64,000 bases of DNA from an uncultured bacterium (GTDB lineage Bacteria; Planctomycetota; UBA1135; GCA-002686595). Below, one piece after another: positions 12,549 through 32,599 of the stretch (its first letter is position 1; each line of letters opens with the position of its first letter). Both the position numbers and the translations under genes were made by a program. The notes beneath the pieces are model-generated. The model made no database searches and was not told the DNA's origin. It was given only the letters and a program-made list of their open reading frames with translations. The stretch covers positions 1 to 64,000 of the forward strand of contig CALJGV010000013.1 in the NCBI GenBank assembly GCA_938075305.1, in the 5' to 3' direction.

Positions 12549-13199
12549 CAGAAGCTCTCGTGGGCGGCGCGGACGAGCGGGAGGTTCCAGCTCGGCCCCG
12601 ACCACGCGTGCTGCGTGAGGGACGGTTCGGACAAGAGTCGAATGCGCCAGAGGCGCGGGTGATGCCGTTCCCGTCGAGGACCAAGGGTCCCGAGGTTCGG
12701 GCGGAATTATGGGCCCGGGGGAAGGCGAACCTCCTCCCGAGGGCCCAGATCGTCCGCGACGGGTCGCCCCAGCGCAAGCAAGACCCGTTCAATGCGGGGT
12801 GGCCGCCTTGCGGCATGGGGGCGGTTCGACCCCCTCCTGGTGGCCCCTGACGGCGGCTTGGCCCCGATGTACGAGAGACCTACGTCGAGGGCCGGCCGAG
12901 GCCAGGGGGGCCCGTGGCCGGTCCGAAGACGCTCCCTGGGGGGATCGATCGCGATGCCCTTCATGCCACGGCGGTGGGTCCAGACCGCAAGGCCTCTCTC
13001 CTGCTGCGCAGCGCTGGAGCGCGCGGGGCTCCCTCCTTGTCCCTGCATCCAGGCGGGCCGGGAGAGGGGCGGATGCCGCCTGGGATTGTCTCAGATGATG
13101 GAAGAGGACCTGTAGAAGCGGGGGGCGCTCCCCGGGCAGGGAGGCCAACCTGCAGACTGGGTCCACTGCCTCCTCCCGTTGCCGTTCAAGCCACAAGCC
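12549..13199. other. Long intergenic stretch with no convincing gene
   Basis: About 650 bp upstream of two divergent genes, unusual in so dense a region. Every open frame here has low-complexity, arginine-rich translations typical of high-GC noise. The only structures noted are an 8-bp perfect stem (13049-13056 with 13076-13083, 19-nt loop) and a GGGGG/CCCCC stem at 12817-12834. I see no tRNA and no U-tract terminator. It may hold promoters, a long leader of the RRM gene or an unrecognised RNA. Confidence 0.4.
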
Positions 13200-14795
13200 A
13201 TGCTCTCGCTCCTCCTCCTCTCGCTCGCGCAAGCTCCTGCACCCTGCCTTCCCTCGGAGATCCTCCCGGCCTCCGGGACGGCCAGTCCCAGCTTCGGTGA
13301 GATCATGGCGGTGGACGGGGACCGGCTGATGGTCGCGGCGGACTCCGGCGGCGGGAGCCTCGACGTCATCAAGGTCTTCGAGCGCGACGCGGTTGGAGGG
13401 GGCTGGTTGGAGGTCCAGGAGGTTGCCCTGGCCCACATTCAGGGAGACTGGTTGGTGGACCTCGACCTCGATGGTGATCGGGCGGTCGCGGTGGTGACGA
13501 CCGGGTCCGGGCACGAGAGCTGGGGCCTGGAGCGGGACTCCGCCAGCGGGCTCTGGGGATGGGGCCTGGAGATCGGAGGCTCCCAGATAGGGGTGCACAC
13601 GGCCTCGGTACTTGCAGACGACGTCGCCGTGGCGTCAGGGAGCGAGATTCGCTGCTATCGCAGGGATCTGGCGGGCTGGCAGCTCTTCAAGACCATTCCG
13701 GTTAGCGGCCAGCTGAGGGAGATAGACCTGAGCCTGCGCTTCCTCGTGACCTCTACGGGGCCAACCTCTGGGAGCCCGAGGGACCTGCGCGCCTACACCC
13801 GTATCCCGGGCCCGGACCTGCTGCCGCCCATCCTCGTGAGTTCGCCATCTCTAGGGCCCTTCGGCGTGGATGGCGACCGGATCATCACGAGGTTCGCCAG
13901 CTTGGTCCGTCACTTCTCCGTCAACGCCGCCGGGGACGGCTGGTTCGCGGCCCAGACCATCTCCCCACCGGCGGGCTACTCCTTCGTGCCTCCGACGGTA
14001 GAACCGCTGAGCCTTGATGCTGGCAGCGGCGTCTTCGTGCTCAACGGGAGGCGCGGTGCGATCGCCGACCCGGTGGTCTTCACCTACCGCCGAACTCAGT
14101 TCGGGGTCTACGAACTGGATTCGATCCTCGAGTCGATACTCCCGCCTGTTCCCCCCTTCGACGGTGACTCGCTGGGACGCAGCATCGCCGTGGGGCGGAA
14201 CCACGTGATCCTCGGGAGCGTGGGGACGTCGGGAGAGGGCCGCCTGGCGGCCCGCGCCCTGAGCTCGAACGACTGCGATCAGAACGGCCTCGGCGACTCC
14301 TGCGACCTGATCCTGGGGCAGGGCTTCGACGTGAACCAGAACAACACGCTCGATGGGTGCGAGGAGACCGGGGTGCGCTATTGCAGCCCGGCGACGGCCA
14401 ACTCCTCGGGGGAGGTGGCGCGCATCGGGATCTTCGGTCCGCCGACGACGGCGCTGTTCTCCATCAACTTCTACGCGGAGGGGCTGCCCGAGGGCGGGCT
14501 CGGGGCCTTCATGGCGTCCCGCGGGAACCAGGTGGTGACGAACCCGCTGTACACGGGGAACTTCTGCCTGGGCGGAGCTCCGACGTACCGGAACCTGGGC
14601 GGCCGGCAGTTCATCACCGAGACCGGCCGGGCGCGGGTGCTCCTGAACCGGCCGTTCGTCCCCGATGGCCTCGGCGGTCTCCTGCCGATCCTCCCCGGGG
14701 AGACCTGGTACTTCCAATATTGGTTCTACGACCCCGGTACCACGCCGAGCACGGGCTTCTCCGACGCGCTGGGCGTCACGTTCACGCTGTTCTAG
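13200..14795 (+). CDS. Secreted FG-GAP-like repeat protein with a recurrent C-terminal module
   Basis: 531 residues from ATG 13200, with a short signal peptide (MLSLLLLSLAQAPAP). Residues ~20-340 contain weak beta-propeller repeats of FG-GAP style (GEIMAVDGDRLMVAAD, LDLDGDRAVAVV, GVDGDRIITRF, GRSIAVGRNHVILGS). Next is an acidic Ca-binding-type stretch (DCDQNGLGDSCD...FDVNQNNTLDGC) similar to dockerin or thrombospondin-3 loops. The last ~138 residues (from 14379) form a module with YCSPATANSSG, a central FCLGG and PGETWYFQYWFYD. The same module ends the proteins at 23286 and 63568, so it is probably a lineage-specific surface or sorting domain. It stands alone ahead of the 15-27.6 kb locus, 204 bp away. 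Confidence 0.75.
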   Translation: MLSLLLLSLAQAPAPCLPSEILPASGTASPSFGEIMAVDGDRLMVAADSGGGSLDVIKVFERDAVGGGWLEVQEVALAHIQGDWLVDLDLDGDRAVAVVTTGSGHESWGLERDSASGLWGWGLEIGGSQIGVHTASVLADDVAVASGSEIRCYRRDLAGWQLFKTIPVSGQLREIDLSLRFLVTSTGPTSGSPRDLRAYTRIPGPDLLPPILVSSPSLGPFGVDGDRIITRFASLVRHFSVNAAGDGWFAAQTISPPAGYSFVPPTVEPLSLDAGSGVFVLNGRRGAIADPVVFTYRRTQFGVYELDSILESILPPVPPFDGDSLGRSIAVGRNHVILGSVGTSGEGRLAARALSSNDCDQNGLGDSCDLILGQGFDVNQNNTLDGCEETGVRYCSPATANSSGEVARIGIFGPPTTALFSINFYAEGLPEGGLGAFMASRGNQVVTNPLYTGNFCLGGAPTYRNLGGRQFITETGRARVLLNRPFVPDGLGGLLPILPGETWYFQYWFYDPGTTPSTGFSDALGVTFTLF

Positions 14796-14999: not shown

Positions 15000-16289
15000 A
15001 TGATCTCGACCCCCGAACACGACTTCGACGCCATCGTCATCGGCGGTGGGCCCGCAGGTTGCGCCGCCGCCACGGTGCTCGCGAAGAAGGGCCGCCGTGT
15101 CGCGGTCCTCGAGAAGCAGCCTCGCCGGCGCTACAGCGTGGGGGAGTCGCTGATTCCCTTCTGCTACGACGCACTGGAGCGAATGGGGCTCGCGGGGGCG
15201 CTTGAGAAGCAGCGCTTCTCCTTCCCCAAGCACAGCGTCCAGTTCGCGAGCCAGGAAGGAAAGGTCAGTCGGTCCTTCTACTTCTTCCAGCACACCGACC
15301 ACCCCCGCGCCAAGACCTGGCAGGTGGTGCGGTCCGAGTTCGACAAGCTCTTGCGCGACAATGCAGAGGAGTGCGGAGTGCAGTTCTTCGAGCAGACCCG
15401 CGCCCGGGAGCTGATCTTCGGCGAGCGCTGCGAGGTCCAGGGCGTGCGGGCCAATGACCCCGCGGGCTACGAGCTGACCTTCAAGGCGCCGGTGACCATC
15501 GACGCCACCGGACGGGACACGTTCTCCCAGAGCCGGCTCGGGTGGCGCGTGCCGGACAAGAAGCTCCGGAAGATGGCCATCTGGACCTACTTCGAGGGGG
15601 CCACCCGGGACGAGGGCTACGACGAGGGCACCACGACCATCGCCTACCTCCCCAACAAGGGTTGGTTCTGGAACATTCCGCTGCCCGACGACCGGGTGTC
15701 CGTGGGCCTGGTCGCCGACAAGGACTACCTGTTCGGCGAGACCAAGGACCTGGAGACGATCTTCAATCGCGAGGTCGAGAAGCAGGACTGGCTCCGGGGG
15801 CGGCTCGAGGAAGCCCGCCGCACGGACGACTTCCGGGTCACCTCCGACTTCTCCTACCGCTCGAAGCACTGCGCCAGCGACGGGCTCGTCCTGATTGGCG
15901 ACGCCTTCTCCTTCCTCGACCCCGTGTTCTCCTCGGGCGTGTATTTCGCCCTGACCAGCGGCGTGCTCGCCGCGGACGCGGTGGACGCCGCGCTGACCGC
16001 TGGGGACACCTCGGCGGGCCGCTTCGCCGAGTATGGCGAGGCGTTCAAGAAGCAGATGGAGCCCATGCGGAAGCTCGTCTACGCCTTCTACGACGACCAC
16101 TTCAGCTTCGGCAAGTTCCTCAAGGAGCACCCGGACCTGCGCCCGCAGGTCACCGACGTCCTGATCGGCGACCTCGAGAAGGACTACGACGACTTCTTCA
16201 AGGTGATGGGGGAGTTCGCGGACCTGCCCGAGCCCCTCCCGCACGGGGAGCCCATCGGGGCGGACACAACGCACTCCGAACACGCCTAG
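15000..16289 (+). CDS. FAD-dependent oxidoreductase with flavin-halogenase motifs
   Basis: 429 residues from ATG 15000. The dinucleotide-binding motif is VIGGGPAGCAAATVLAKKG (near residue 14), followed by RRRYSVGESLIP and the C-terminal FAD motif GDAFSFLDPVFSSG. These occur in the geranylgeranyl reductase/halogenase superfamily. Two further features favour the halogenase side: an exact WxWxIP motif (W222-F-W224-N-I226-P227), and a lysine (K77, in FSFPKHSVQF) at about the position of catalytic K79 of tryptophan 7-halogenase. Non-halogenating relatives, including polyprenyl reductases, share parts of these motifs, so activity is open: chlorination or bromination of a product, or reduction of isoprenoid double bonds. 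It is the first gene of a co-directional locus with a ferredoxin, a polyprenyl synthase and cyclases. Confidence 0.8.
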   Translation: MISTPEHDFDAIVIGGGPAGCAAATVLAKKGRRVAVLEKQPRRRYSVGESLIPFCYDALERMGLAGALEKQRFSFPKHSVQFASQEGKVSRSFYFFQHTDHPRAKTWQVVRSEFDKLLRDNAEECGVQFFEQTRARELIFGERCEVQGVRANDPAGYELTFKAPVTIDATGRDTFSQSRLGWRVPDKKLRKMAIWTYFEGATRDEGYDEGTTTIAYLPNKGWFWNIPLPDDRVSVGLVADKDYLFGETKDLETIFNREVEKQDWLRGRLEEARRTDDFRVTSDFSYRSKHCASDGLVLIGDAFSFLDPVFSSGVYFALTSGVLAADAVDAALTAGDTSAGRFAEYGEAFKKQMEPMRKLVYAFYDDHFSFGKFLKEHPDLRPQVTDVLIGDLEKDYDDFFKVMGEFADLPEPLPHGEPIGADTTHSEHA

Positions 16290-16325
16290 TTCTGGGCCCC
16301 GCGACCGCGTCCGCCCGGCGGACCC

Positions 16326-16331
16326 TAGACT
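16326..16331 (+). promoter_or_regulatory. Possible -10 element (TAGACT) before the lipoyl-protein gene
   Basis: A TAnnnT hexamer ending 12 bp before the ATG at 16344, inside the 54-bp gap after the flavoprotein gene. It could give the redox genes their own nearly leaderless transcript. No clear -35 is seen. Confidence 0.25.
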
Positions 16332-16343
16332 CTTGGGCCGCCC

Positions 16344-16835
16344 ATGTGCCCCTCCGACGTCTTCCTCCCCTTCGAGCGCGCGCGCTTCAAGACGCGCCTC
16401 CCGCGCGGGCACTTCTACACCGCGGGCCATATGTGGCTCCACCAGTCCGAGCCCGACCTGTGGCACGTGGGGCTGACCCGCTTCGCCCTGCGGATGCTCG
16501 GTGAGCCGGTGGACCTGGACTTCGAGATGGCCCTGGAGACCGAGGTCCACAAGGGCGACGTGGTGGGCTGGCTGGAGGGCTTCAAGGCGGTGACGGACCT
16601 CTACAGCCCCATCGACGGCCGGTTCGCCGGCGCGAATCCGGGCCTCGACGAGGGTCTCGACGCGGTGCACCGCTCTTCCTACCAGCGGGGCTGGCTCTTC
16701 GCCCTGAGGGGCAAGGTGGACGAGGACTGCGTGGACGCTGAGGGCTACGCCGCCGTCCTCGAGGCGGCCATCGACAAGGTGCTCGGGGAACAGCCCGAGC
16801 TCGCCGAGGTCGAGGAGGGAGCCAGCCATGGTTGA
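16344..16835 (+). CDS. GcvH-like lipoyl carrier protein
   Basis: 163 residues, with a fold pattern matching glycine-cleavage H protein: GHMWLHQ, HVGLTRFALRMLGE, then WLEGFKAVTDLYSPIDG. In the last motif K81 is the lipoylation lysine. The ending SSYQRGWLFAL matches the H-protein C-terminal GWL turn. It is ~35 residues longer than ordinary H protein, with an acidic helical tail. No gcvT or gcvP gene is near. H-like lipoyl proteins outside glycine cleavage include LbpA of the sulfur-oxidising Hdr-like system. The HdrA-like and ferredoxin genes just downstream suggest a redox carrier role here. The next gene overlaps by 8 bp and has a strong GAGGAGGGA ribosome site. Confidence 0.85.
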   Translation: MCPSDVFLPFERARFKTRLPRGHFYTAGHMWLHQSEPDLWHVGLTRFALRMLGEPVDLDFEMALETEVHKGDVVGWLEGFKAVTDLYSPIDGRFAGANPGLDEGLDAVHRSSYQRGWLFALRGKVDEDCVDAEGYAAVLEAAIDKVLGEQPELAEVEEGASHG

Positions 16836-17961
16836 GGACCTCCGCGCCACCTACGTCATGATCGGCGGCTTCCTCGGGGCGGGGAAGACCACCGCCGTGG
16901 CTCGCATGGGCGCGGCGCTCACCGAGCGCGGCCTGAAGGTGGGGCTCATCACCAACGACCAGAGCTCGGGGCTCGTGGACACATCCATCCTGCGCAGCCG
17001 CGGCTTCGCGGTGGAGGAGATCGCGGGCGGCTGCTTCTGCTGCCGCTTCGGGTCCCTGGCGGAGGCCGCCGAGCGCCTCGAGGCCGACGAGCGCCCGGAC
17101 GTCTTCCTCGCGGAGCCCGTGGGCAGCTGCACGGACCTGGTGGCCACGGTGAGCTACCCGCTGCGTCGGATCTACGGCGACCGCTTCCGGGTCGCGCCGC
17201 TCTCGGTGCTCGTCGACCCCCAGCGCGCGCGGCGGGTCCTGGGGCTCGCGGAGGGCCGCCGCTTCTCGGAGAAGGTGACCTACGTCTTCGAGAAGCAGCT
17301 CGAGGAGGCGGACCTGATCGCCATCAACAAGGTGGACACCCTCGGGCCCGAGGAGCTCGCGGAGCTCGAGGCGGGCCTGGCGGCGCGCTTCCCCAGGGCC
17401 GAGGTCCTCAAGATCTCCGCGGAGCACGGCGAGGGCACGGAGGCGTGGTTCGACCGGATCCTGGCCGAGGAGGCGCAGCCCCAGCCGACCATGGAGCTGG
17501 ACTACACCACCTACGCCGAGGGCGAGGCCCTCTTGGGCTGGCTCAACCTCACGGCCCGGATGGCCACCGCCGATGAACCGGTGGACGCCAACCAGCTGCT
17601 CCTCGACCTCGCCGCTCAGATCCAGCGCGCGGCCGGCGAGCAAGACGCGGAGATCGCCCACCTCAAGGCCACCCTCGACGCGGGCGATGCCTCGGGGCGC
17701 CTGGCGGCCCTGTCGGTGACGTCAGGGGACGGAGAGGTCGACCTGCGGGAGGCGCTGGTCGACGGTGTGCGCGCCGGCGAGCTCATCGTCAACCTCCGCG
17801 CGGAGGGCGACCCCGCGGCCCTCAAGGCCATGGTGCTGGCGGCCCTCGAGGCCGCGGCCGCCGCGCGCCCGGGCTGCAGCCTGGAGGTGGAGCACGAGGA
17901 GCACTTCCGGCCTGCGCCGCCCCAGCCCACGCACCGCGACGAGATTCGGGGGACCGCCTGA
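16828..17961 (+). CDS. CobW/G3E-family P-loop GTPase
   Basis: 377 residues. Walker A is GGFLGAGKTT (G13-T22), and the metallochaperone motif C69-F-C71-C72 lies in GGCFCCRFG. The base-recognition motif is NKVD, in LIAINKVDTLGPEE. G3E GTPases (CobW, HypB, UreG, ZNG1 types) use GTP to load metal ions or cofactors into client enzymes. The C-terminal ~180 residues do not resemble the usual CobW C-terminal domain. They are Ala/Glu-rich, with a short conserved-looking DLREALVDGVRAGELIVNLRAEG. Position between the lipoyl carrier and the Hdr-like/ferredoxin genes suggests that the client is a metal or Fe-S protein of this locus. It overlaps the lipoyl gene by 8 bp and sits 3 bp from the next gene. Confidence 0.85.
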   Translation: MVEDLRATYVMIGGFLGAGKTTAVARMGAALTERGLKVGLITNDQSSGLVDTSILRSRGFAVEEIAGGCFCCRFGSLAEAAERLEADERPDVFLAEPVGSCTDLVATVSYPLRRIYGDRFRVAPLSVLVDPQRARRVLGLAEGRRFSEKVTYVFEKQLEEADLIAINKVDTLGPEELAELEAGLAARFPRAEVLKISAEHGEGTEAWFDRILAEEAQPQPTMELDYTTYAEGEALLGWLNLTARMATADEPVDANQLLLDLAAQIQRAAGEQDAEIAHLKATLDAGDASGRLAALSVTSGDGEVDLREALVDGVRAGELIVNLRAEGDPAALKAMVLAALEAAAAARPGCSLEVEHEEHFRPAPPQPTHRDEIRGTA

Positions 17962-17964
17962 ACC

Positions 17965-18303
17965 ATGGGTCGCCGCATCGTCCACTGCCACTGCGTCTAC
18001 TCGAAGGTGGTTCCCGCCGACGTGAAGGCCGCCGTACTCGAGCGCCTCGCGGGCTCGGACGAGGACTTCGAGGCCGTCCCCGACCTCTGTGAGATGTCGG
18101 CGGGCAAGGACCCGGCGCTCGGCCGCTTCGCGGGGGACGGCGAGGTGGAGATCGTGGCCTGCTTCCCGCGAGCGGTCCGGTGGCTCTTTCATTCCGCCGG
18201 TCACGAACTCGCTGGGGAGGCTAGCATCCACAACATGCGATCATCCACGGCCGACGAGGTCTGCGGAGCCCTTGGGCTCCCGGACCAGGAGAGCGCCTCT
18301 TGA
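17965..18303 (+). CDS. Small protein resembling the HdrA N-terminal domain
   Basis: 112 residues. It starts with a Cys pair (IVHCHCVYSK), then VPDLCEMSAG, then EVEIVACFPRAVRWLFHSAGHEL and finally HNMRS. This order parallels the N-terminal segment of heterodisulfide reductase subunit A: a VxVCxCG start, a YxCSxPGQ region, VVASCxPRxHEPxF with an AGLNP turn, then NIRE. The parallel is by eye, so homology needs a profile test. In HdrA this domain precedes the FAD domain; here it stands alone. Cys and His residues could bind an Fe-S cluster. Its stop codon overlaps the TTG start of the ferredoxin gene, so the two are probably translationally coupled. Confidence 0.55.
   Translation: MGRRIVHCHCVYSKVVPADVKAAVLERLAGSDEDFEAVPDLCEMSAGKDPALGRFAGDGEVEIVACFPRAVRWLFHSAGHELAGEASIHNMRSSTADEVCGALGLPDQESAS
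18287..18291 (+). promoter_or_regulatory. Ribosome binding site deciding the TTG start at 18300
   Basis: AGGAG ends 8 nt before TTG 18300, ideal spacing. It lies inside the upstream HdrA-like gene. This supports the rare start codon, which overlaps the upstream stop as TTGA. Confidence 0.7.
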
Positions 18304-19154
18304 AGCCGACGGGGGCGGCCCGCCCGGGCCCGAGCGCGCCCTTCGGCGAGCTCCACGTCGCCGTGGAGCCGGGCGGCCTCGACGGCGTTGACGCGGCCGG
18401 CCGCGGGGCGGTCCTCGCGGCGCTGCTGGAGGCCGGCCACCCCGTCTCACGCAAGGCCGAGGTGAGGGAGGGGGCCCTCGCCCGACTGGGCGCGGACGTG
18501 AGCGTCCTGGATCGCGCACCGGAAGAGGTGGTCGCCGACGTGGCGGCGCGGCGCGAAGCCGCGGCGGCGCCCGCCCCCGGGGCGTGGACGCCCTGGTTCC
18601 CGGTCATCGACTACGACCGCTGCACGAACTGCATGCAGTGCCTGTCGTTCTGCCTCTTCGACGTGTACTCGGTGGACGGCGACGGCCGGATCACGGTCCA
18701 GAACCAGGAGAAGTGCAAGACCAGCTGCCCCGCCTGCAGCCGCGTCTGCCCCGAAGTCGCGATCCTCTTCCCCAAGTACAAGAAGGGGCCCATCAACGGG
18801 GACGAGGTCAAGGCCGAGGACATCGCGTCGGAGTCCATGAAGGTGGACATCTCCTCGCTCCTGGGCGGTGACATCTACTCCGCCCTCAAGGAGCGCAGCG
18901 GCTCGGCCAAGCAGCGCTTCTCCACCGAGCGGGACGAGTCCAAGGCCCTCCTGGAGCGCAAGCGCTGCCTGAAGGAGCTCAAGGACAAGCTCGACATCCC
19001 CTCGGAGGTCCTCATGAGCCTCCCGAGTGCGGGGGACATCGAGGAGCGAGCGCGCCGCGCCCGCGCCAAGCAGGAGGAGCGCATCGCGCGCTCTCGCTCG
19101 GCCCAGGATCAGAAGAAGATCGACGGTCCGAGCACCCAGGAGTGGGACATTTGA
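18300..19154 (+). CDS. Two-cluster 4Fe-4S ferredoxin-domain protein
   Basis: 284 residues with a TTG start. Residues 1-100 form an unassigned Ala-rich domain. Residues 105-152 hold two cysteine quartets: C108-x2-C111-x2-C114-x3-C118 and C139-x3-C143-x2-C146-x3-C150. The second lacks the usual CxxCxxC spacing at its start. After the clusters comes a charged helical tail (~165-284) rich in Lys, Glu and Arg, unlike small soluble ferredoxins and possibly a docking arm. It probably carries low-potential electrons to the radical SAM enzyme or the flavoprotein of the locus; ferredoxin-driven polyprenyl reductases of the same flavoprotein superfamily are known in archaea. Both ends overlap neighbouring genes by 4 bp. 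Confidence 0.85.
   Translation: MKPTGAARPGPSAPFGELHVAVEPGGLDGVDAAGRGAVLAALLEAGHPVSRKAEVREGALARLGADVSVLDRAPEEVVADVAARREAAAAPAPGAWTPWFPVIDYDRCTNCMQCLSFCLFDVYSVDGDGRITVQNQEKCKTSCPACSRVCPEVAILFPKYKKGPINGDEVKAEDIASESMKVDISSLLGGDIYSALKERSGSAKQRFSTERDESKALLERKRCLKELKDKLDIPSEVLMSLPSAGDIEERARRARAKQEERIARSRSAQDQKKIDGPSTQEWDI
19138..19142 (+). promoter_or_regulatory. Ribosome binding site deciding the TTG start at 19151
   Basis: AGGAG ends 8 nt before TTG 19151. The alternatives GTG 19142, which overlaps the site, and ATG 19169 have no comparable signal. The chosen TTG again forms a TTGA overlap with the upstream stop. Confidence 0.7.
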
Positions 19155-20347
19155 GCGCCGCCCTCGCCATGCGCGTCCTCCGCACGACCTCCCCGAAGGT
19201 CCAGTGGAAGTTCGCCTACAACTTCGGCTGGAAGGGCATGCGCAGCGTGCAGCGCTTCAAGAGCCGCCTCAAGGAGGGGAAGGTCTTCCCGCCCTTCCTC
19301 TACATCTCGATCATCAACTCCTGCAACCTGCGCTGCCGTGGGTGCTGGGTCGACGTCGCGGCGCCCCAGAAGAAGATCAGCTTCGAGGACTTCGACCGCA
19401 TGGTCACCAACGCCAAGAAGCACGGGAACCGCTTCTTCGGCATCCTCGGCGGGGAGCCGTTCTTGCACCCCGACCTGATGCGCATGCTCGCGGCGCACCC
19501 CGACTGCTACTTCCAGATCTTCACCAACGGTCAGCCGATCACCGACGAGGTGGCCGCCGAGCTGGCGCGCCTCGGCAACGCGACGCCGCTCATCAGCGTC
19601 GAGGGCGACACCGTCGAGAGCGACGCGCGCCGTGGACGCACGGACGTCTACGACAAGACCCTGGCGGGCATCGAGGCCGCGCTGCGGCACAAGCTCCTCG
19701 TGGGCGTGGCGTCCAGCGTGTGCGCCACCAACTACGACCAGCTGGTGCGCGAGGAGTGGGTGGACAAGCTCATCGATCTGGGCGTGCACTACTGCTGGTT
19801 CCACACCTACCGCGCCGTGGGGCCGGACGCCGCTCCCGAGCTGGCGCTCACCCCCGAGCAGATCCGCAGCACCCGTCAGTTCGCCGTGGACATGCGCAAC
19901 CGCAAGGCCATCGGCTTCGTGGACGCCTACTGGGACGACAAGGGCCAGGCCCTGTGCCCCGCCGCCATCGGGATCAGCCACCACATCTCGCCCTACGGGG
20001 ACGTGGAGCCCTGTCCGATCGTCCAGTACGCCACCGAGCGCATCCAGGACAACGACGGGGACATCTACAAGACGCTCACCGAGTCCAAGATGCTCGAGGA
20101 CTTCCGCCGCACCGCCGCGGAGACCACCCGCGGCTGCATCGTGCTCGAGGCCCCGGACAAGCTGGCCGAGGTGGGGCGGCGCCACGGCGCGCGCGACACC
20201 ACGGCCCGGGGGGACGCCTTCGAGGAGTACGACCGCATGGAGTCGAGACCGAGCCAGCACGACCCGGGCAACGAGATCCCCGAGAAGCACTGGATGTACC
20301 GCTTCGCCAAGAAGCACTGGTTCTTCGGGTTCGGCGCCTACACCTGA
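19151..20347 (+). CDS. Radical SAM enzyme of an isoprenoid/redox locus
   Basis: 398 residues. The 4Fe-4S/SAM motif is C58-NLR-C62-RG-C65, followed by GGEPFLHPDL (SAM contact) and later strands FQIFTNGQ and PLISVEGD. A C-terminal Cys/His region (ALCPAAIGISHHISPYGDVEPCPIV) is reminiscent of a degenerate SPASM auxiliary-cluster domain. The protein has some overall resemblance to hopanoid HpnH (VPPFL...SCNLRC-GC, GGEP, TNG), but not enough to assign that function. The N-terminus (VQWKFAYNFGWKGMRSVQRF) is amphipathic and could sit on the membrane. It lies directly after the ferredoxin, its likely electron donor, and 114 bp before the polyprenyl synthase fusion. The reaction is unknown; C-C bond formation or methylation on an isoprenoid lipid are plausible. 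Confidence 0.82.
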   Translation: MSAALAMRVLRTTSPKVQWKFAYNFGWKGMRSVQRFKSRLKEGKVFPPFLYISIINSCNLRCRGCWVDVAAPQKKISFEDFDRMVTNAKKHGNRFFGILGGEPFLHPDLMRMLAAHPDCYFQIFTNGQPITDEVAAELARLGNATPLISVEGDTVESDARRGRTDVYDKTLAGIEAALRHKLLVGVASSVCATNYDQLVREEWVDKLIDLGVHYCWFHTYRAVGPDAAPELALTPEQIRSTRQFAVDMRNRKAIGFVDAYWDDKGQALCPAAIGISHHISPYGDVEPCPIVQYATERIQDNDGDIYKTLTESKMLEDFRRTAAETTRGCIVLEAPDKLAEVGRRHGARDTTARGDAFEEYDRMESRPSQHDPGNEIPEKHWMYRFAKKHWFFGFGAYT

Positions 20348-20425
20348 GCACGCGGGCGAGCGATGGGCCGTGTACAGGTTGTTCAGCCCTGGCGGCGTTT
20401 CAGCGCACCTGGAGCGGCGAGCCCC

Positions 20426-20431
20426 TAGAAT
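20426..20431 (+). promoter_or_regulatory. Possible -10 element (TAGAAT) before the DUF116-polyprenyl synthase gene
   Basis: A good -10 match 30 bp before the ATG at 20462, in a 114-bp gap between genes of the locus. It suggests that the second half of the locus can be transcribed separately. A -35 is not convincing. Confidence 0.35.
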
Positions 20432-20461
20432 GCGACCCACTCCTCCCCGGACGCCACGACG

Positions 20462-22303
20462 ATGAACCCGCCCCCCGATCCTGCCACCGCCTCCCCGGAG
20501 GCGCCGACCGAGGCCGCTCCTGCGATTCGGAGCACCCTCTCCGGCGGTGAGACCCGGGTGCAGTTGCCCCGCCGTCTGCCCATCGTCCGTGAGCGCACGA
20601 CCCAGTCCAACATCCCGAACGAGCGCGCCACCCGCGACCGTTTGCGGAGCCTCGCCGCGGCGCTGGTCGCCGAGCGAGCGGTGGTTGCCCCCGCCTCGAT
20701 CCTGCAGCTGCGGGAGCTGGCGGTCGAGGTCATCCGCCGCGCCGATGTGGACGACGTCTTCATCGACTACACCGCGGTGCTCCTGAACAACGAGGTCTGG
20801 CGGGACGAGCTGGCCCAGGTGCCCTACGAGCGACGCCTTCTGCTCCTGCCCAAGTGCCTGCGGGTCGAGGAGCACTGCCCGGCGCCCTTCGACGAGTTCG
20901 GGATGCTCTGCAAGGAGTGTGGCCTGTGCTCCATCGAGGACTTCACCCGTGAGGCCGAGGAGCTCGGCTACGCGGTCCTGATCGCCGAGGGCTCGGCCAT
21001 CGTCACGGCGATGGTGGAGACGGGCAAGATCGACGCCATCGTGGGGGTCTCTTGCCTCAACGTGCTCGAGAAGTGCTTCCCGCACATGGAGCGCGTGGCG
21101 ATCCCCGGCATGTCGATCCCCCTGCTCCAGGACGACTGCATCGACACCAACGTGGACGTGGATCAGGTCCGCGACCTCATCCACCTCACCGCCGAGGACC
21201 GCACCTACCGCCTGGACCTCGAGGGGCTCAAGGGCGACGTCCGCGCCTGGTTCAAGCGCGACGCGCTGGACGAGGTCATGGGCCCCGCCGCCGGCGTCGA
21301 CCCCGCCACCGACGACCTCGCCCGGGACTGGCTCGCGCGCGACGGCAAGCGCTGGCGGCCCTACCTCGCCACCGCCATCTGGATGGCCCTGGAGAGCGAG
21401 GGCCGCGCCGAGGCGCCGGCCTTCACCGCGGACGTCCGCAAGCTCGCCGTGGCCATCGAGTGCTTCCACAAGGCGTCTCTGATTCACGACGACATCGAGG
21501 ATGGGGACGACGTGCGCTACGGCGCGCCGACGCTCCACGCCGAGCACGGCGTCGCCGTGGCCATCAACATCGGGGACCTGCTCCTCGGCGAGGGCTACCG
21601 CCTGCTGGGCGAGCTCGAGGTGGACGGAGAGACCCGCGCGCAGCTCCTGTCCGTGGCGGCCCAGGGGCACGCGACGCTCTCGCGCGGCCAGGGCGCCGAG
21701 CTCAACTGGGCCCGCGCCCCGCGGCCCCTCACCTCCCTGGACGTCCTCGGGATCTTCCGGGAGAAGACGGCCCCGGCCTTCGAGGTCGCCCTGCGCCAGG
21801 GCGCGCTCCTTGCGGGCGCCGGGCCGGAGGTGCTCGAGGTGCTCGGGCCCTACAGCGAGGCCCTCGGCATCGCGTACCAGATCCACGATGACCTGGACGA
21901 CTTCACCGGCGAGGGCGACTCGGACGACCTCGCGGACCTGCGGCCCTCGCTGATCATGGCCATCGCCCACAAGCGCGCGGCAGGCGGCGACGCCGAGGCC
22001 ATGCTGGACGCGATCTGGCGCAAGGAGCGCCCCGTCGGCGTCCCCGGCTCCGACGAGCGGAGGGCCCTCGAGGCGCGCCTCGGCGAGTGGGGCGTGGTTC
22101 AGAAGGCCCGCGACCTCGCGGACGCCTACGAGGTGGCAGCGGTGGAGTCGCTGACGCCGCTGCAGCACCCCAGCGTCAAGGGGCTCCTGCGCCGGGTCGT
22201 CGGCAAGATCTTCGGTGAGGGCGACCTCATCGAGGGCTACTGCTCCGAGTTCGAGGCGCTGAATCGGTCTCGCCAGGAAGAGGCCCCGAAGACCACCGCT
22301 TGA
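20462..22303 (+). CDS. DUF116-polyprenyl diphosphate synthase fusion
   Basis: 613 residues in two parts. Residues ~70-240 are a DUF116 domain: LLLLPKCLR, then HCPAPFDEFG, MLCKECGLC and GVSCLNVLEKC. The cysteines C132, C139, C150, C153 and C156 could hold an Fe-S cluster or zinc. Residues ~290-600 are a trans-isoprenyl diphosphate synthase with GKRWRPYL, the first aspartate-rich motif D343-D-I-E-D347 and the second D476-D-L-D-D480. It would therefore build a prenyl diphosphate from IPP and an allylic primer. I do not recall this fusion as a described architecture. DUF116 genes usually occur near Fe-S and lipoate-related genes, which fits the neighbours. The final TGA overlaps the TTG start of the next gene. 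Confidence 0.85.
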   Translation: MNPPPDPATASPEAPTEAAPAIRSTLSGGETRVQLPRRLPIVRERTTQSNIPNERATRDRLRSLAAALVAERAVVAPASILQLRELAVEVIRRADVDDVFIDYTAVLLNNEVWRDELAQVPYERRLLLLPKCLRVEEHCPAPFDEFGMLCKECGLCSIEDFTREAEELGYAVLIAEGSAIVTAMVETGKIDAIVGVSCLNVLEKCFPHMERVAIPGMSIPLLQDDCIDTNVDVDQVRDLIHLTAEDRTYRLDLEGLKGDVRAWFKRDALDEVMGPAAGVDPATDDLARDWLARDGKRWRPYLATAIWMALESEGRAEAPAFTADVRKLAVAIECFHKASLIHDDIEDGDDVRYGAPTLHAEHGVAVAINIGDLLLGEGYRLLGELEVDGETRAQLLSVAAQGHATLSRGQGAELNWARAPRPLTSLDVLGIFREKTAPAFEVALRQGALLAGAGPEVLEVLGPYSEALGIAYQIHDDLDDFTGEGDSDDLADLRPSLIMAIAHKRAAGGDAEAMLDAIWRKERPVGVPGSDERRALEARLGEWGVVQKARDLADAYEVAAVESLTPLQHPSVKGLLRRVVGKIFGEGDLIEGYCSEFEALNRSRQEEAPKTTA

Positions 22304-23178
22304 GCCTCCGCCTCGAGATGCTGCAGGTCGCCCGGCTCGCGCCGGGGGTGCTCGGGGACGCGACGCCGCGGGTGGTGGAGTTCGTCCGCTCCCAGCTCAC
22401 CGCGGAGGGCGGCGGCGCGGACCGCGCGGGCAAGCCGGACCTCTACTACACCGCGTTCCTCCTGGACGCGCTGGTGGCGCTCTCGGAGGAGCTCCCCGCG
22501 GACGAGGTCCGCCCCTACCTCGAGACCTTCGGCGACGGGGAGGACCTGGACCTCGTGCACCGCGCCTGCCTGGTCCGCTGTTGGGCGGCGCTCGGGGGGG
22601 GGTGGCCCAGCGAGACCTTCGTGGCGTCGATCACCGAGCACCTCTCGCGGTGCCGGAGCGCGGACGGCTCCTTCGGCATGGATCCCGGCCGCGCCCGCGG
22701 CACGCTCTACGACGCGTTCCTCGCGCTCGGCGTCTACCAGGACGTCGGGGTTCCGATGCCCGCGCCCGCGGTGCTCGGCGCGGCCATGGCGGAGCTGCGC
22801 ACGCCGGATGGAGGGTTCTCCAACGAGAGCGAGCTGAAGTGGGGGATGGGCCCCTCCACCGCGGCCGCCGTGGCGGTGCTCTCCCAGCTGGAGCTGCCGG
22901 TCCCCGACGACGTGGTCCCCTGGCTGCTGTCCCAGATCCACCCCAAGGGCGGGTACAAGGCGATCCCCGACGCGCCCATGCCGGACCTGCTCTCCACGGC
23001 CACGATCCTCCACGCTCTTGGGATCCTCGGCGCGGACATCGGCGGGGCGAAGGAGCTGTGCCTCGACTACCTCGACACCCTCTGGAACGGGAAGAGCTTC
23101 TACGGTCACTGGGCCGAGGAGGAGCTGGACGTGGAGTACACCTTCTACGCGCTGCTCGCTCTCGGGCACCTGAGCTGA
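22300..23178 (+). CDS. Small terpene-cyclase/prenyltransferase-like alpha-toroid protein
   Basis: 292 residues from TTG 22300 (an ATG at 22318 is an alternative). It contains repeats of the squalene cyclase/prenyltransferase-beta type: RSADGSFGMDPG, LRTPDGGFSNESE, IHPKGGYKAIPD and a closing AEEELDVEYTFYALLALGHL. At this length it is one alpha-alpha barrel, not the double barrel of a squalene cyclase. The zinc ligands of protein prenyltransferase beta subunits are not visible, nor is a DxDD motif, so it may be a non-catalytic partner, a class II cyclase fragment or a prenyl-binding protein. It overlaps the polyprenyl synthase gene by 4 bp and is probably translationally coupled to it. A larger member of the same fold is encoded 2.6 kb downstream. 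Confidence 0.7.
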   Translation: MSLRLEMLQVARLAPGVLGDATPRVVEFVRSQLTAEGGGADRAGKPDLYYTAFLLDALVALSEELPADEVRPYLETFGDGEDLDLVHRACLVRCWAALGGGWPSETFVASITEHLSRCRSADGSFGMDPGRARGTLYDAFLALGVYQDVGVPMPAPAVLGAAMAELRTPDGGFSNESELKWGMGPSTAAAVAVLSQLELPVPDDVVPWLLSQIHPKGGYKAIPDAPMPDLLSTATILHALGILGADIGGAKELCLDYLDTLWNGKSFYGHWAEEELDVEYTFYALLALGHLS

Positions 23179-23285
23179 CGCGCTCGCCCCGCCCTCGGGA
23201 CGTCCGGACCGGAGCGAGGGCCCCTCCCTGGCCTCCCAGGGGTGATTGCCTTCTTGTTTTGAAGCCGCGCCCGTACGGTCGGGTC

Positions 23286-25688
23286 ATGAAGGTCTTCCCC
23301 CTCGCGCCGCTTTGCACCCTCTTCCTGGCGGCCCTTGCGTCGAACGCCGGTGCCCAGGGCGCCGACCTCTGCGTCTTCGCCCAGCCGATCACGGCCACAG
23401 GGGCCTTCCCCGTGGACACCTCCCTCGCCGCAACCGACGGCCCGGCGAACGGCTGCGGTGAGAACGGTCAGATCCACAACGACGTCTGGTTCCGGTGGAC
23501 GAGCACGGTGAGCGGCACGGTGCAGATGGACACCTGCGCCGCGGCGACCTTCGACACCACCATGGCGGTCTACCCCGACGAGAGCTGCGTGACCGCGGCG
23601 CCGATCGTCTGCAACGACGACCAGTGCGCGCTCCGTTCCCGGATCGCCTTCACGGCGGTGGCAGGGGTGGACTATCGCGTCCGGGTCGGGGGATGGAACG
23701 ACGTGGCGCGCGGGACCGCGACGCTCACCATCAGCGCGGTGACGGGGGTTGCGAACGACACCTGCGCCAGCCCGGCGCCCATCACCGGCTTCGGCGTCTT
23801 CCCGACGGACACCACCCAGGCCATGACCGAGGGCGTGGCGGATGGCTGTGGATCGGGGGGGCAGATCCATCGGGACGTGTGGTACCTGTGGACCGCGACC
23901 GTGGACGGGTCCACCGAGGTCAACTCCTGCCAGGCGAGCTTCGACACGACGATCGCGGTCTACGACGGCGCGGCGTGCCCGACGGCGGCGCCCATCGCCT
24001 GCAACGACGACGCCTGCCACATCCAGACGCGCGTGACCTTCTCTGCCGTCGCGGGCGGCACCTACCTGCTCCGCATGGGGGGCTTCAACGAGTCGGCGGG
24101 CGGGGTCTTCGACGCGACCATCTCCGCGGGGAGCGGGATCAGCTGCTCCTCGCCGCCGGTCGGTCCGGACGTGATCATCGGGGACCTGCCGGCCATCCAG
24201 AGCTACGGCGGCGCGGCGGAGATGAGCGCCTTCGCCCTCGCCACCACGGCCTGCAACGTGGGGGACGCCACCATGCACTGGAACGGCAGCAACCGCTTCC
24301 ACCCGGTCATCGGCCAGAACCTCTACCGCATCGAGGACGGTGCCATTCGCCAGCTCGGGATGTCCTGGCTCAAGCATGGCTTCGCTTCGGCCACGGGGAG
24401 CCTGTGCTGCACCTGCATCAGCCCCGGCTCCAACCAGATCATGGGCATCGGCTGCTCGGACCCCTACGGCGCCACCATCAACGGCGCCCAGAGTGGGCTC
24501 GGGCCGCGCTCGGAGGTGAACCCCTGGACCGGGCTGTTCGCCTACCCCTTCGGGACCCAGGGCCAGACGGGTGACGTGATCTACAAGCGCCTGCAGGTGC
24601 CCACCCAGGACGTGGACCCGGCCCTGCACCCCTCGGCGCGGTACGTCGTCGAGGGGCAGTACGTGACCCCGGACGACGCCCAGGCGGGGAACCAGAACAA
24701 CAACTGCTCCTGGGCGGACGCCCAGCCCACCGGGCCGGTCGCGGGAGGTCTCGGGCTCGCGATCTCGGGGGCCACGAGCGTGGGGGAGCCTGCGATCTTC
24801 GCGTGGCGCGCCGATGACCCGGAGGTGCAGATCACCACCGTCGCGGCCTCGGGGGACGGCGTGATCCACGTGGGGTCGCGCGCCCACGACAACGGGGACG
24901 GGACCTGGCGCTACGAGTACGCCGTGCACAACGAGACCTCCGCGCGCGCCGCGCGGAGCCTGCGCGTGCCGGTGGCCGCGGGGAGCATCATCTCCGGCGA
25001 CGCCTTCCACGACGTCGACTACCACTCGGGCGAGCCCTACGACCGGACCGACTGGGCGTTCACCGTCGCCGCAGGCGCCATGGAGTGGGCGACGCCGGGG
25101 CACGCGGTGAACCCGGACGGCAACGCCCTGCGCTGGGGCACCCTGTACGGCTTCACCGTCACCGCCAGCGCGCCGCCGGTGGCGGGCGCGGTGGACCTGG
25201 GGCTCTTCGTCCCTGGTCTCGAGAATCTGCTCACGGCTGCCGCCATCGTCCCCGGGGTGCCGGTGGTGGGGGAGCGCTACTGCTCGCCCGCGGTGGTGAA
25301 CTCCAGCGGGGTCCCGGCCGTCCTCCGGGCCATCGGGAGCGCCGTGGTCTCAGACGATGACCTGACGCTCGAGGCGAGCTCCATGCCGCTGCACACCTCG
25401 GGCTACATGCTCGCCTCTCGGGACGAGGGGTTCGCGGCCCAGCCCGGAGGGAGCCAGGGCAACCTCTGCCTCGGCGGCACCATCGCGCGCTTCCGCTCCC
25501 AGGTGATGAGCTCGGGCGCCGAGGGTCGGTTCTCGATCCCCGTCGACCTCTCCTCGATCCCGATCACGCCGCCCACCGCGGTCCTCCCCGGGGAGACGTG
25601 GCGGTTCCAGTGCTGGTTCCGGGATCAGCTCTTCATCGGCGTGACCTCCTCGAACTTCACCGACGCCGTGCGGGTCACCTTCGAATAG
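23286..25688 (+). CDS. Large secreted protein with two PPC-like repeats and the recurrent C-terminal module
   Basis: 800 residues from ATG 23286, with a signal peptide (MKVFPLAPLCTLFLAALASNAGAQG). Two ~130-residue repeats follow, each with a DxCA...FPVDT start, GQIHNDVWFRWT, FDTTMAVY, ACNDDxC and YRVRVGG. This is the bacterial pre-peptidase C-terminal (PPC)-like style, with paired cysteines. Residues ~300-650 form an unassigned region with several cysteines (LCCTCISPGSN, NNNCSW), including GPDVIIGDLPAIQSYG. The last ~136 residues (from 25278) are the YCSPAVVNSSG...PGETWRFQCWFRD module. It lies between two terpene-cyclase-like genes, with 107 and 65 bp gaps. Whether it belongs to the same function is unclear; it may be an independent surface protein. 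Confidence 0.72.
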   Translation: MKVFPLAPLCTLFLAALASNAGAQGADLCVFAQPITATGAFPVDTSLAATDGPANGCGENGQIHNDVWFRWTSTVSGTVQMDTCAAATFDTTMAVYPDESCVTAAPIVCNDDQCALRSRIAFTAVAGVDYRVRVGGWNDVARGTATLTISAVTGVANDTCASPAPITGFGVFPTDTTQAMTEGVADGCGSGGQIHRDVWYLWTATVDGSTEVNSCQASFDTTIAVYDGAACPTAAPIACNDDACHIQTRVTFSAVAGGTYLLRMGGFNESAGGVFDATISAGSGISCSSPPVGPDVIIGDLPAIQSYGGAAEMSAFALATTACNVGDATMHWNGSNRFHPVIGQNLYRIEDGAIRQLGMSWLKHGFASATGSLCCTCISPGSNQIMGIGCSDPYGATINGAQSGLGPRSEVNPWTGLFAYPFGTQGQTGDVIYKRLQVPTQDVDPALHPSARYVVEGQYVTPDDAQAGNQNNNCSWADAQPTGPVAGGLGLAISGATSVGEPAIFAWRADDPEVQITTVAASGDGVIHVGSRAHDNGDGTWRYEYAVHNETSARAARSLRVPVAAGSIISGDAFHDVDYHSGEPYDRTDWAFTVAAGAMEWATPGHAVNPDGNALRWGTLYGFTVTASAPPVAGAVDLGLFVPGLENLLTAAAIVPGVPVVGERYCSPAVVNSSGVPAVLRAIGSAVVSDDDLTLEASSMPLHTSGYMLASRDEGFAAQPGGSQGNLCLGGTIARFRSQVMSSGAEGRFSIPVDLSSIPITPPTAVLPGETWRFQCWFRDQLFIGVTSSNFTDAVRVTFE

Positions 25689-25740
25689 GGGGCGTCCGGT
25701 CGAGGGGGGCGCGGCGCGCCGTCGAGCCCGCCGCCGCCCG

Positions 25741-25746
25741 TATACT
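25741..25746 (+). promoter_or_regulatory. Possible -10 element (TATACT) of the squalene-cyclase-like gene
   Basis: A near-consensus TATACT ends 7 bp before the ATG at 25754 in an otherwise GC-rich 65-bp gap. It predicts an essentially leaderless transcript. It is the best match of its kind in the window. Confidence 0.45.
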
Positions 25747-25753
25747 CGTCCCC

Positions 25754-27640
25754 ATGGGGGCACACCTCGACCCGGACGGCCTCGGCCTCCTCGACGACGC
25801 GCTCGGCCGGGCGCGGGCGTCTCTCCTGGATCGCCGGGGGAGTGAGGGCCACTGGCGGGGGGAGCTCTCCTCCAGCGCGCTCTCCACCTCCACGGCGGTG
25901 GCGGCCCTGGCGGGCGCGGCTGGCGCCCTCCCCGGCGGGTCTCCCGAGCGCGCCGAGCTCGAGGGGCTGGCCGGGCGCGGGCGGACCTGGCTCGCCGCGA
26001 ACCCGTCCCCGGACGGCGGCTTTGGGGACACCACGGACTCCCCGAGCAACCTCTCCACCACGGCGCTGGCGTGGATGGCGCTGGGGCCGGGCCTCGGGCT
26101 GTCCGCCGACGAGGCCGTGGAGCGGGCGTGGACCCGCGCGGACGGCTGGCTCAGGGAGGCCCTGGGCGGGGCGCGCCCGGACTCCACCCGCCTCGCGGCT
26201 GCGCTGGAGGAGATCTACGGCGAGGACCGCACCTTCGCTGTGCCGATCCTGGCGGCCTGCACCATCGGTGGCGCCTTCGCGGAGGACCCCGACCCCTGGC
26301 GGGTGGTGCGCCCGCTGCCCTTCGAGGTCGCGGCGCTGCCCCAGGGGCTCTTCCGGTTCCTGGGCCTCCCGGTCGTGAGCTACGCGCTGCCTGCGCTGAT
26401 CGCCATCGGCCAGGCCATCGCCCACCACCGGCCGAGCGGGAACCCCGTCGCTCGCCTCCTGCGCCGGGCCCTGGCGCCGCGCACGCTCCGCGTGCTCGCG
26501 GGGATCCAGCCCGAGAACGGCGGCTTCCTCGAGGCGACGCCGCTCACGAGCTTCGTCACCCTCTCTCTGGTTGCGATCGGCGAGGTCCAGCATCAGGTGG
26601 TCGCCCGGGGCCTCTCGTTCCTGCGCGCGTCGGTGCGCGCGGACGGGTCGTGGCCCATCGACACCGACCTCGCCACCTGGGGGACGAGCCTCTCGGTGGG
26701 GGCGCTGGGTGCGGACTTCGAGGGCGCCGAGCAGATCAAGGGGTGGCTCCTCGACCAGCAGCACACCGAGCGGCACCCGTTCACCGGCGCGGCCCCGGGG
26801 GGCTGGGCGTGGACCGACCTCCCCGGCGGCGTACCGGACGCGGACGACACGCCGGGAGCCCTGATCGCCCTCCGACTCCTTGAGGGGGACAGGCCCTCGC
26901 CCGAGACGCGCGCGGCGGCGGCTGCCGGGCTCCGCTGGTTGGTCGACCTGCAGAACCGTGACGGCGGGATCCCGACCTTCTGCAGGGGGTGGGGCCGGCT
27001 CCCCTTCGACCAGAGCTGCGCGGACCTCACCGCCCACGCGCTGCGGGCGTTCGACGTGTGGGAGGGTGCGCTCGATGGTGCAGCGGCCGGGGACCTCGGC
27101 CGCCGGATGGAGCGGGCGCGGGCCGAGGCCGTCGGGTTCCTCGTCCGGCGGCAGTCTTCCGACGGCTCGTGGACCCCGCTCTGGTTCGGCAATCAGGAGC
27201 ACCCGGAGAAGCTGAACCCCCTCTACGGCACCAGCCGCGTGCTGCGCGCGGCCGGGGTTCGGGTCTCTGGAGGATCCGCCGGGGGCTGGCGGACGGCCCT
27301 CGAGCGGGGGGCCGCGTGGCTGCGGTCCGCCCAGGGCGCCGACGGCGGCTTCGGCGGCGCACCGGGGCTCACCCCGACCGTCGAGGAGACCGGCCTCGCA
27401 CTCGAGGCCCTGGTGGATCTGGTGGAGGCTGGCCTCGGGGAGGAGGGTGACCTCGACCGGGTCCGCCGCGCCGCCCGCTGGCTCACCGAGCGGACCGACG
27501 GCGGCCGGACGTTCCCGCGCTCACCCATCGGGCTCTACTTCGCCCAGCTCTGGTACCACGAGGAGCTCTACCCGGTGGTCTTCACCGTCTCGGCGCTGGG
27601 CGCCGCCCGCCGGCTCCTGGAGCGACCCTCCCGGGGGTGA
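25754..27640 (+). CDS. Squalene-hopene-cyclase-like class II terpene cyclase
   Basis: 628 residues from ATG 25754, the usual length of bacterial squalene-hopene cyclase (~630). The protonating motif D362-A-D364-D365-T is intact and at the expected position (DVDD at ~374-377 in Alicyclobacillus). QW-type repeats are visible: WLAANPSPDGGFGD, VLAGIQPENGGFLE, WLVDLQNRDGGIP, FLVRRQSSDGSWTP and WLRSAQGADGGFGG. The closing GLYFAQLWYHEELYPVVFTV replaces the family's YxHYFP-type end. It should be a monotopic membrane enzyme that cyclises a polyene by protonation. The substrate is unknown: no squalene synthase or hpn gene is near, while a polyprenyl synthase is, so a longer or different isoprenoid is possible. 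It is the last gene of the locus and converges on a DoxX-like gene. Confidence 0.88.
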   Translation: MGAHLDPDGLGLLDDALGRARASLLDRRGSEGHWRGELSSSALSTSTAVAALAGAAGALPGGSPERAELEGLAGRGRTWLAANPSPDGGFGDTTDSPSNLSTTALAWMALGPGLGLSADEAVERAWTRADGWLREALGGARPDSTRLAAALEEIYGEDRTFAVPILAACTIGGAFAEDPDPWRVVRPLPFEVAALPQGLFRFLGLPVVSYALPALIAIGQAIAHHRPSGNPVARLLRRALAPRTLRVLAGIQPENGGFLEATPLTSFVTLSLVAIGEVQHQVVARGLSFLRASVRADGSWPIDTDLATWGTSLSVGALGADFEGAEQIKGWLLDQQHTERHPFTGAAPGGWAWTDLPGGVPDADDTPGALIALRLLEGDRPSPETRAAAAAGLRWLVDLQNRDGGIPTFCRGWGRLPFDQSCADLTAHALRAFDVWEGALDGAAAGDLGRRMERARAEAVGFLVRRQSSDGSWTPLWFGNQEHPEKLNPLYGTSRVLRAAGVRVSGGSAGGWRTALERGAAWLRSAQGADGGFGGAPGLTPTVEETGLALEALVDLVEAGLGEEGDLDRVRRAARWLTERTDGGRTFPRSPIGLYFAQLWYHEELYPVVFTVSALGAARRLLERPSRG

Positions 27641-32392: not shown

Positions 32393-32599
32393 GCCCACCT
32401 GCGCGCCCGGGCGGGTGAGGAGCGGCCCGGGCCCCTCCGGGGTCCCGAGGGGGCCGTGTGAAAGGTCCAGGCAAAGGGGGCCCGCGGATGCCTGAGGGAC
32501 CGATCTCCCCGGCGCCAGCGAGTACCATGCGGCCGTTCCAACGTGCGCCTCGCCCGACCCGCAGGGCGCGGCTGCCCTCCCCCGCACTCACAGGACCGC

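Follow-up and report, generated by a model that had tools for sequence, protein, structure and literature searches.

The window analysed here is a stretch of 64,000 nucleotides (GC content 0.71) of contig CALJGV010000013.1 from an uncultured planctomycete whose genome is 90% complete. Between positions 15,000 and 27,640 it carries a run of genes that places isoprenoid chain synthesis and cyclization beside a lipoyl-type carrier, a ferredoxin-like protein and a radical S-adenosylmethionine (SAM) enzyme. The original prediction had nine named genes and a secreted protein on one strand, separated by overlaps or short gaps, and all ten open reading frames (ORFs) are confirmed on the + strand. Successive ORFs, from a flavoprotein to a cyclase, are spaced by 54, -8, 3, -4, -4, 114, -4, 107 and 65 bases, i.e. 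four junctions overlap by 4-8 bases and the remaining gaps are 3-114 bases; the start codons are the analysts' choice. The family labels (flavoprotein superfamily, GCV_H, cobW, 4Fe-4S, Radical_SAM, DUF116 with polyprenyl_synt, Prenyltrans and SQHop_cyclase) are backed by Pfam/NCBIfam. The set is real and co-inherited with its catalytic residues kept, as judged genome-wide for four families and by gene neighbourhood for the others, and the arrangement is beyond chance because it recurs in other families and phyla.

The conserved genes begin with a GcvH-like carrier predicted to be lipoylated at K81 (16344-16835), followed by a CobW/COG0523-type GTPase (16828-17961; cobW 5e-25), a 112-residue protein that is weakly like the HdrA N-domain and has four conserved cysteines, C8, C10, C42 and C66 (17965-18303), a ferredoxin-like protein with two 4Fe-4S motifs, Fer4 matches and an uncertain start codon (18300-19154), and a radical SAM enzyme (19151-20347; Radical_SAM 1e-18). 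The isoprenoid genes encode a DUF116 domain fused to a trans-polyprenyl diphosphate synthase (20462-22303; DUF116 and polyprenyl_synt), a small single-domain alpha/alpha toroid of the prenyltransferase-beta/class II cyclase fold (22300-23178; Prenyltrans, AlphaFold and Foldseek), and a class II cyclase like squalene-hopene cyclase (SHC) with a DADDT motif (25754-27640; SQHop_cyclase_C 5e-22). The lipoyl lysine and the DxDD motif are as had been claimed, the latter reading DADD. These eight neighbouring genes of the predicted list recur, while a cysteine desulfurase (31214-32392, +; Aminotran_5 2e-74) that lies outside the predicted stretch had been overlooked.

Co-inheritance of the gene set

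Genome-wide searches of 294 Planctomycetota genomes covered four families and found the DUF116-synthase in 69, the ferredoxin in 69, the cluster-type cyclase in 65 and the cluster-type radical SAM enzyme in 59; the association of the remaining five (GcvH-like carrier, CobW GTPase, four-Cys protein, toroid and desulfurase) was judged by gene neighbourhood. Synthase and ferredoxin occur together in 67 genomes, each alone in 2, and neither in 223 (p = 2.9e-61); all four families are found in 56 genomes and none in 222. At the level of families (92 in all) 32 have both, one has each alone and 58 have neither (p = 1.9e-22), p values that are only a guide because the genomes are not independent. Synthase genomes are those with a match at E 1e-45 or better, partial or split genes included (e.g. 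G075, G243, G277, G130 and G061), a partial match in G098 (1.5e-29) being left uncounted; of 74 genomes listed for the radical SAM enzyme, the 59 that reach 1e-134 or better are counted, the next best standing at 2e-73. The redox half and the prenyl/cyclase half do co-occur, as the original prediction had held, partly also where they are unlinked, and across phyla.

The sharpest evidence for association is that the gene set is retained even where linkage is lost. Ten of the 11 carrier genomes that consist of one contig have all four genes, and nine of these ten have one or more of them at a distance of at least 73 and up to 3196 kb from the synthase; the radical SAM gene is 73-543 kb away in eight one-contig carriers and the ferredoxin gene 450-3196 kb away in four. 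The window's genus has the set in 3/3 genomes, and in this sample it is found in 0/8 further genomes of the family and 0/11 of the order.

A cross-phylum scan with the ferredoxin alignment found at least 575 stretches that encode a relative; the best 80, analysed as loci, belong by record label to Planctomycetota, Acidobacteriota, Verrucomicrobiota, one Hydrogenedentota, one Bacteroidales and a few uncultured bacteria, where the labels of metagenome-assembled genomes may be wrong. The eight genes from GcvH-like carrier to cyclase stand in largely constant order across Planctomycetota, Acidobacteriota and Verrucomicrobiota. Besides the ferredoxin, present in all 80 as the query, the loci hold the four-Cys protein (76), CobW GTPase (67), radical SAM enzyme (66), synthase (63), GcvH-like carrier (60), toroid (54), cyclase (45), desulfurase (39, three of them low-scoring matches on the opposite strand), flavoprotein (5) and secreted protein (2). 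Many loci end at contig boundaries; 38 of the 80 are fully flanked (at least 20.3 kb, with about 10 kb on either side, L144 being dropped as a duplicate). The CobW, synthase, GcvH-like and toroid genes are together in 31 of these, and 28 carry at least eight of nine families, counting desulfurase matches above 400 bits only and scoring L080, where the four-Cys protein forms a fusion with the ferredoxin, as lacking it. The complete chromosome of Planctomycetales bacterium ZRK34 has the nine families in a single locus (L140).

The synthase is missing from six of the 38 flanked loci (L124, L130, L132, L135, L136 and L148), and a full DUF116-synthase is encoded elsewhere in all five of the corresponding genomes that were searched (all but L130). 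Four genomes of five further synthase-less loci (L110, L123, L134, L145 and L152) also hold the DUF116-synthase, and that of L152 has plain synthases only. Overall, 9 of 10 genomes with a synthase-less ferredoxin locus hold the full fusion (11 were searched, L141 already having a synthase in its locus), and a redox half tied to unrelated genes is rejected on this count. The original prediction had proposed this comparison of neighbourhoods; the outcome does not refute the joined set, since the genomes of synthase-less redox loci nearly all hold a DUF116-synthase elsewhere.

In a quick tree of 53 synthases Acidobacteriota and Planctomycetota are intermixed and Verrucomicrobiota need just two changes; transfer between phyla is plausible, not proven. 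When pairwise protein distances are compared between the nine core families, every one of the 36 pairs shows a correlation (rho 0.32-0.81) that exceeds all of its 199 permutations, a result that could also stem from shared descent alone. A conserved protein of about 180 residues follows the ferredoxin in Verrucomicrobiota (L122, L126, L142, L150 and L151), and the one checked has no Pfam match.

Isoprenoid, redox and accessory proteins

Residue conservation was read from alignments of 46-104 rows per core family, with eight loci left out (L144 and seven repeat-genome records). In the DUF116-synthase (AlphaFold mean pLDDT 85) seven Cys of the DUF116 domain are at least 93% conserved, and D343, D344, D347, D476, D477 and D480 of the two Asp-rich motifs, the first being DDIED, are invariant in 40 sequences. 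The synthase domain is nearest to geranylgeranyl diphosphate synthases among solved structures, and the fifth position ahead of its first Asp-rich motif is invariably Ala, which by the chain-length rules for such enzymes is compatible with chains longer than C15. The toroid (mean pLDDT 96.6) finds GGTase-III and RabGGTase beta subunits as best Foldseek matches (TM-score by query about 0.61-0.69), with short SHC-like proteins further down. Protein prenyltransferase beta subunits bind zinc through a Cys ligand; in 40 relatives of the toroid no Cys reaches even 90% conservation, so the ligand is not kept, and identity as such a subunit is rejected.

The cyclase has D364, D366 and D367 invariant in 27 sequences and DxDDT conserved in 71 relatives. 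Its nearest solved protein is SHC (2e-37), but a score of 54 bits, far below the SHC equivalog cut-off of 431, speaks against identity as a squalene-hopene cyclase. In the window genome four SQHop_C matches pass the cut-off, the cyclase with the best score (57 bits) and three others with 35 to 27 bits, and one gene has the squalene/phytoene synthase domain PF00494, which covers phytoene synthase too. That domain is not seen in 8 of the 56 cluster genomes, two of these being 99% complete (G057 and G200), so the cyclase need not use squalene, although the other 48 do have the domain.

The carrier matches GCV_H at 57 bits, above the Pfam cut-off, and falls short of the gcvH equivalog cut-off of 115.85, a score on which identity as the GcvH of glycine cleavage is rejected; a separate, higher-scoring GCV_H gene lies on contig C35 of the window genome. 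K81 is invariant in 30/30 aligned relatives, among which no Cys column is conserved; in a set of 77 the conservation of this lysine is at least 93%. The CobW GTPase keeps its P-loop and GCFCC in 78 relatives. In the ferredoxin all 8 Cys are invariant in 18 rows and at least 93% conserved in 104, and the radical SAM enzyme (numbered from 19142) has C61-x3-C65-x2-C68 as well as C272, C291 and C332 invariant in 22 rows, and all six stay at or above 93% in the larger alignment. The best of six solved relatives of this enzyme is SkfB (7e-18 over residues 51-259); the HpnH model matches at 1e-9 with 37 bits against an equivalog cut-off of 225, and HpnH identity is rejected. A different radical SAM protein of 511-524 residues (Pfam in one) lies near the DUF116-synthase in L032, L048 and L068, whose genomes lack the usual family, and may replace the usual enzyme.

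The four Cys of the small protein are at least 93% conserved (93 rows), and in five ORFs it is fused to the ferredoxin. It has no Pfam/NCBIfam match at E 0.01, and its profile gives chance-like matches only among solved structures, designed repeat proteins being the best. The predicted likeness to the HdrA N-domain rests on the order of the four Cys and a stretch ACxPR...N(M/I)RE. An hhalign comparison with 11 HdrA N-domains scores 22.2, against at most 14.7 for 15 shuffles, but with a probability of 5%; an HdrA model is matched by 2 of 31 members (best E 0.011), an HdrA Pfam model by 0 of 31. Kinship with HdrA is a weak lead. In each of nine Planctomycetota HdrA homologues (L153-L160 and L162) the matching region contains one in-frame TGA codon, or two in the case of L157, which possibly stand for selenocysteine.

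The desulfurase came to light as a class-V aminotransferase that recurs among unlabelled neighbours in 11 loci of the first set. Numbered from 30614, it keeps K413, which we take to be the pyridoxal phosphate (PLP) lysine, and C537, presumably the active-site Cys, both at least 93% conserved in 46 relatives. A high-scoring desulfurase is present in 25/38 fully flanked loci; in many Acidobacteriota it directly precedes the GcvH-like gene, and in the window it is separated from the end of the cyclase gene by 3.6 kb that hold other genes. The window genome has three further paralogues of 44-47% identity. A lipoate ligase family adjoins 4/79 loci, all of Acidobacteriota, and is confirmed by Pfam in the 2 checked. 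Near the desulfurase are genes for BamB/PQQ-type beta-propellers at 29819-31093 (-), 32543-34846 (+) and 34839-36401 (+), the last two of a family (c7) that stands near the cluster in 13 locus groups and is perhaps merely common in the phylum. In L033, L036, L039 and L047 an ABC ATPase and a large FtsX-type permease follow the toroid or cyclase (Pfam in L036), a possible product exporter.

Two of the ten ORFs lie outside the core. The flavoprotein of the halogenase/geranylgeranyl-reductase superfamily (15000-16289; Trp_halogenase 2e-25) has a stretch WFWNIP like WxWxIP, which we take to be the motif of flavin-dependent halogenases; it reaches 190 bits with the CmlS model against a cut-off of 900, which speaks against a halogenase of this kind, and 133 against 158.8 with GG-red-SF. 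Because it is found in just 5/80 loci, its proposed membership did not survive, and a halogenated or flavoprotein-reduced (geranylgeranyl reductase-type) lipid as the core idea of the conserved set is rejected. The secreted protein with a galactose-binding-like domain (23286-25688) is seen in the window's genus only and falls outside the pathway: it is found in 2/80 loci, L073 and L074, which are the named relatives nearest the window (labelled Planctomycetota and uncultured bacterium), and in 3/41 synthase loci, all of the same genus. Both this protein and another secreted ORF at 13179-14795 (+) have the motif YCSPAxxNSSG some 125 residues from their C-terminus, perhaps as part of a lineage-specific C-terminal domain.

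A proposed pathway and its rivals

That these genes are functionally associated is a near-certainty. From their sequences and distribution, the locus probably, though by no means surely, encodes a dedicated pathway for a cyclized and radically modified polyprenoid lipid or lipid cofactor. The synthase domain would make an all-trans polyprenyl diphosphate, and the SHC-like enzyme and small toroid would use DxDD acid catalysis to close rings on this chain or on a derivative of it, squalene not being obligatory. The radical SAM enzyme would then make a modification beyond the reach of polar chemistry. The lipoyl carrier, four-Cys protein, ferredoxin and Cys-rich DUF116 domain may make up a short electron relay to the radical SAM enzyme and, via the DUF116 fusion, to the prenyl chain; the order of the electrons is much less certain than the association. 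The desulfurase and CobW GTPase would supply sulfur and metal, at least to the four predicted iron-sulfur proteins. A single pathway is supported by the phyletic pattern, the unlinked co-presence, the conserved catalytic residues, the fusions of four-Cys protein to ferredoxin and of DUF116 to synthase, and the distance correlations, as well as by the lipoate ligase beside some loci and the cluster genomes that lack PF00494.

Several findings weigh against such a pathway. In 41 planctomycete loci, the window included, neighbours of the synthase are the ferredoxin in 32 and the radical SAM gene in 28, but the GcvH-like, CobW and four-Cys genes in only 25, 23 and 24, many of these loci being divergent or cut and the neighbourhoods looser in the more divergent groups. 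Searches detected no member of the radical SAM family in 10/69 synthase genomes, in three of which another radical SAM protein adjoins the synthase, and no cyclase in 7/69, so the radical and cyclization steps may be variable. The PF00494 domain is present in 48/56 cluster genomes, and no head-group gene was found among the conserved genes.

The recurrence of a desulfurase paralogue with the set, in a genome with three others, suggests instead that the product itself might bear sulfur: the desulfurase would load sulfur via lipoyl or an iron-sulfur cluster onto a cyclized polyprenoid as a thiol, thioether or sulfur-bridged ring, and the radical SAM enzyme would be the sulfur-inserting or ring-forming catalyst. 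The lipoyl carrier, the lipoate ligase at 4/79 loci and the extra conserved Cys of the radical SAM enzyme are in keeping with this. However, four predicted iron-sulfur proteins can account for the desulfurase, the carrier is without the two conserved Cys of the lipoyl protein LbpA, and neither LipA nor BioB is among the best 25 of 45 NCBIfam matches of the radical SAM protein or among its solved-structure matches shown; a sulfur-bearing product seems unlikely. Much of the set (CobW GTPase, desulfurase, DUF116 and four-Cys protein) would also suit the making or repair of a metallo- or redox cofactor to which the prenyl/cyclase enzymes give just a lipid tail or anchor, and in several Verrucomicrobiota loci the cyclase does not adjoin the set. 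A cluster-type cyclase in 62/69 synthase genomes is nevertheless above expectation for an optional tail step, and we regard this explanation as quite unlikely. Highly improbable is a hopanoid variant in which squalene would be converted to a hopene-like product with an HpnH-like radical SAM extension: the cyclase is of the SHC family, the HpnH model does match, and most cluster genomes have a squalene/phytoene synthase domain, but the two equivalog scores are far too low (54 vs 431 and 37 vs 225 bits), the set has its own polyprenyl synthase, and 8/56 genomes are without PF00494.

To return to the cyclized polyprenoid pathway, its fullest extension would be a widespread new class of lipid or lipid cofactor, a sulfur-bearing cyclized polyprenoid made with a prenyl synthase that has a Cys-rich (iron-sulfur) domain and with lipoyl as electron or sulfur carrier; we put this forward tentatively and with considerable doubt. 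If true, lipoate would have a function in Planctomycetota, Acidobacteriota and Verrucomicrobiota that belongs neither to carbon metabolism nor to sulfur oxidation. We know of no pathway that couples lipoyl and iron-sulfur chemistry to isoprenoid cyclization as this set does. The keeping together of nine families over at least three phyla points to an important molecule, and the set is experimentally approachable since it is carried by one-contig planctomycete genomes and by the named complete chromosome of ZRK34.

Comparison with known systems

Geranylgeranyl reductases can be driven by ferredoxin, and the present set shares with such systems a ferredoxin and an isoprenoid substrate, whereas a flavoprotein like these reductases or halogenases is near only 5/80 loci. 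The solved folds nearest to the small toroid are the beta subunits of RabGGTase, GGTase-III and FTase, from which it differs in having no conserved Cys; no alpha subunit was noticed. With the class II cyclases of squalene-hopene and drimenyl-diphosphate type the cyclase shares sequence family and DxDD, but it is far below the squalene-hopene equivalog cut-off and is co-inherited with redox genes.

In sHdr-LbpA sulfur oxidation, as described in the passages of PMC6067878 on LbpA, the gene of a GcvH-like lipoyl protein is accompanied by those of Hdr-like proteins, radical SAM proteins and lipoate ligases, and LbpA, with reported exceptions among archaea, has two conserved Cys, N- and C-terminal. 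The carrier here has the same strictly conserved lipoyl lysine (K81, 30/30) but lacks the Cys pair in 30 relatives, so that LbpA identity is rejected, and it is accompanied by a prenyl synthase and cyclases; no HdrB/HdrC-like family was noticed among the recurring neighbours, where the Pfam-typed families are others and no HdrB/HdrC model was run. The DUF116-synthase fusion has a counterpart in Psta_0175 of Pirellula staleyi, a DUF116-polyprenyl synthetase fusion for whose DUF116 domain electron transfer was proposed (PMC5898192, 2015). The passages of that report on Psta_0175 name the fusion alone; they mention neither the wider gene set and its joint inheritance nor the cyclases. Searches of the open-access PubMed Central literature, subscription journals being outside its scope, turned up no account of the set, in agreement with the original prediction, which knew of no described pathway with this combination. 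Within that literature the novelty lies at the level of the system: its components belong to known superfamilies, while the pathway as a whole fits none of the described ones with which it has been compared.

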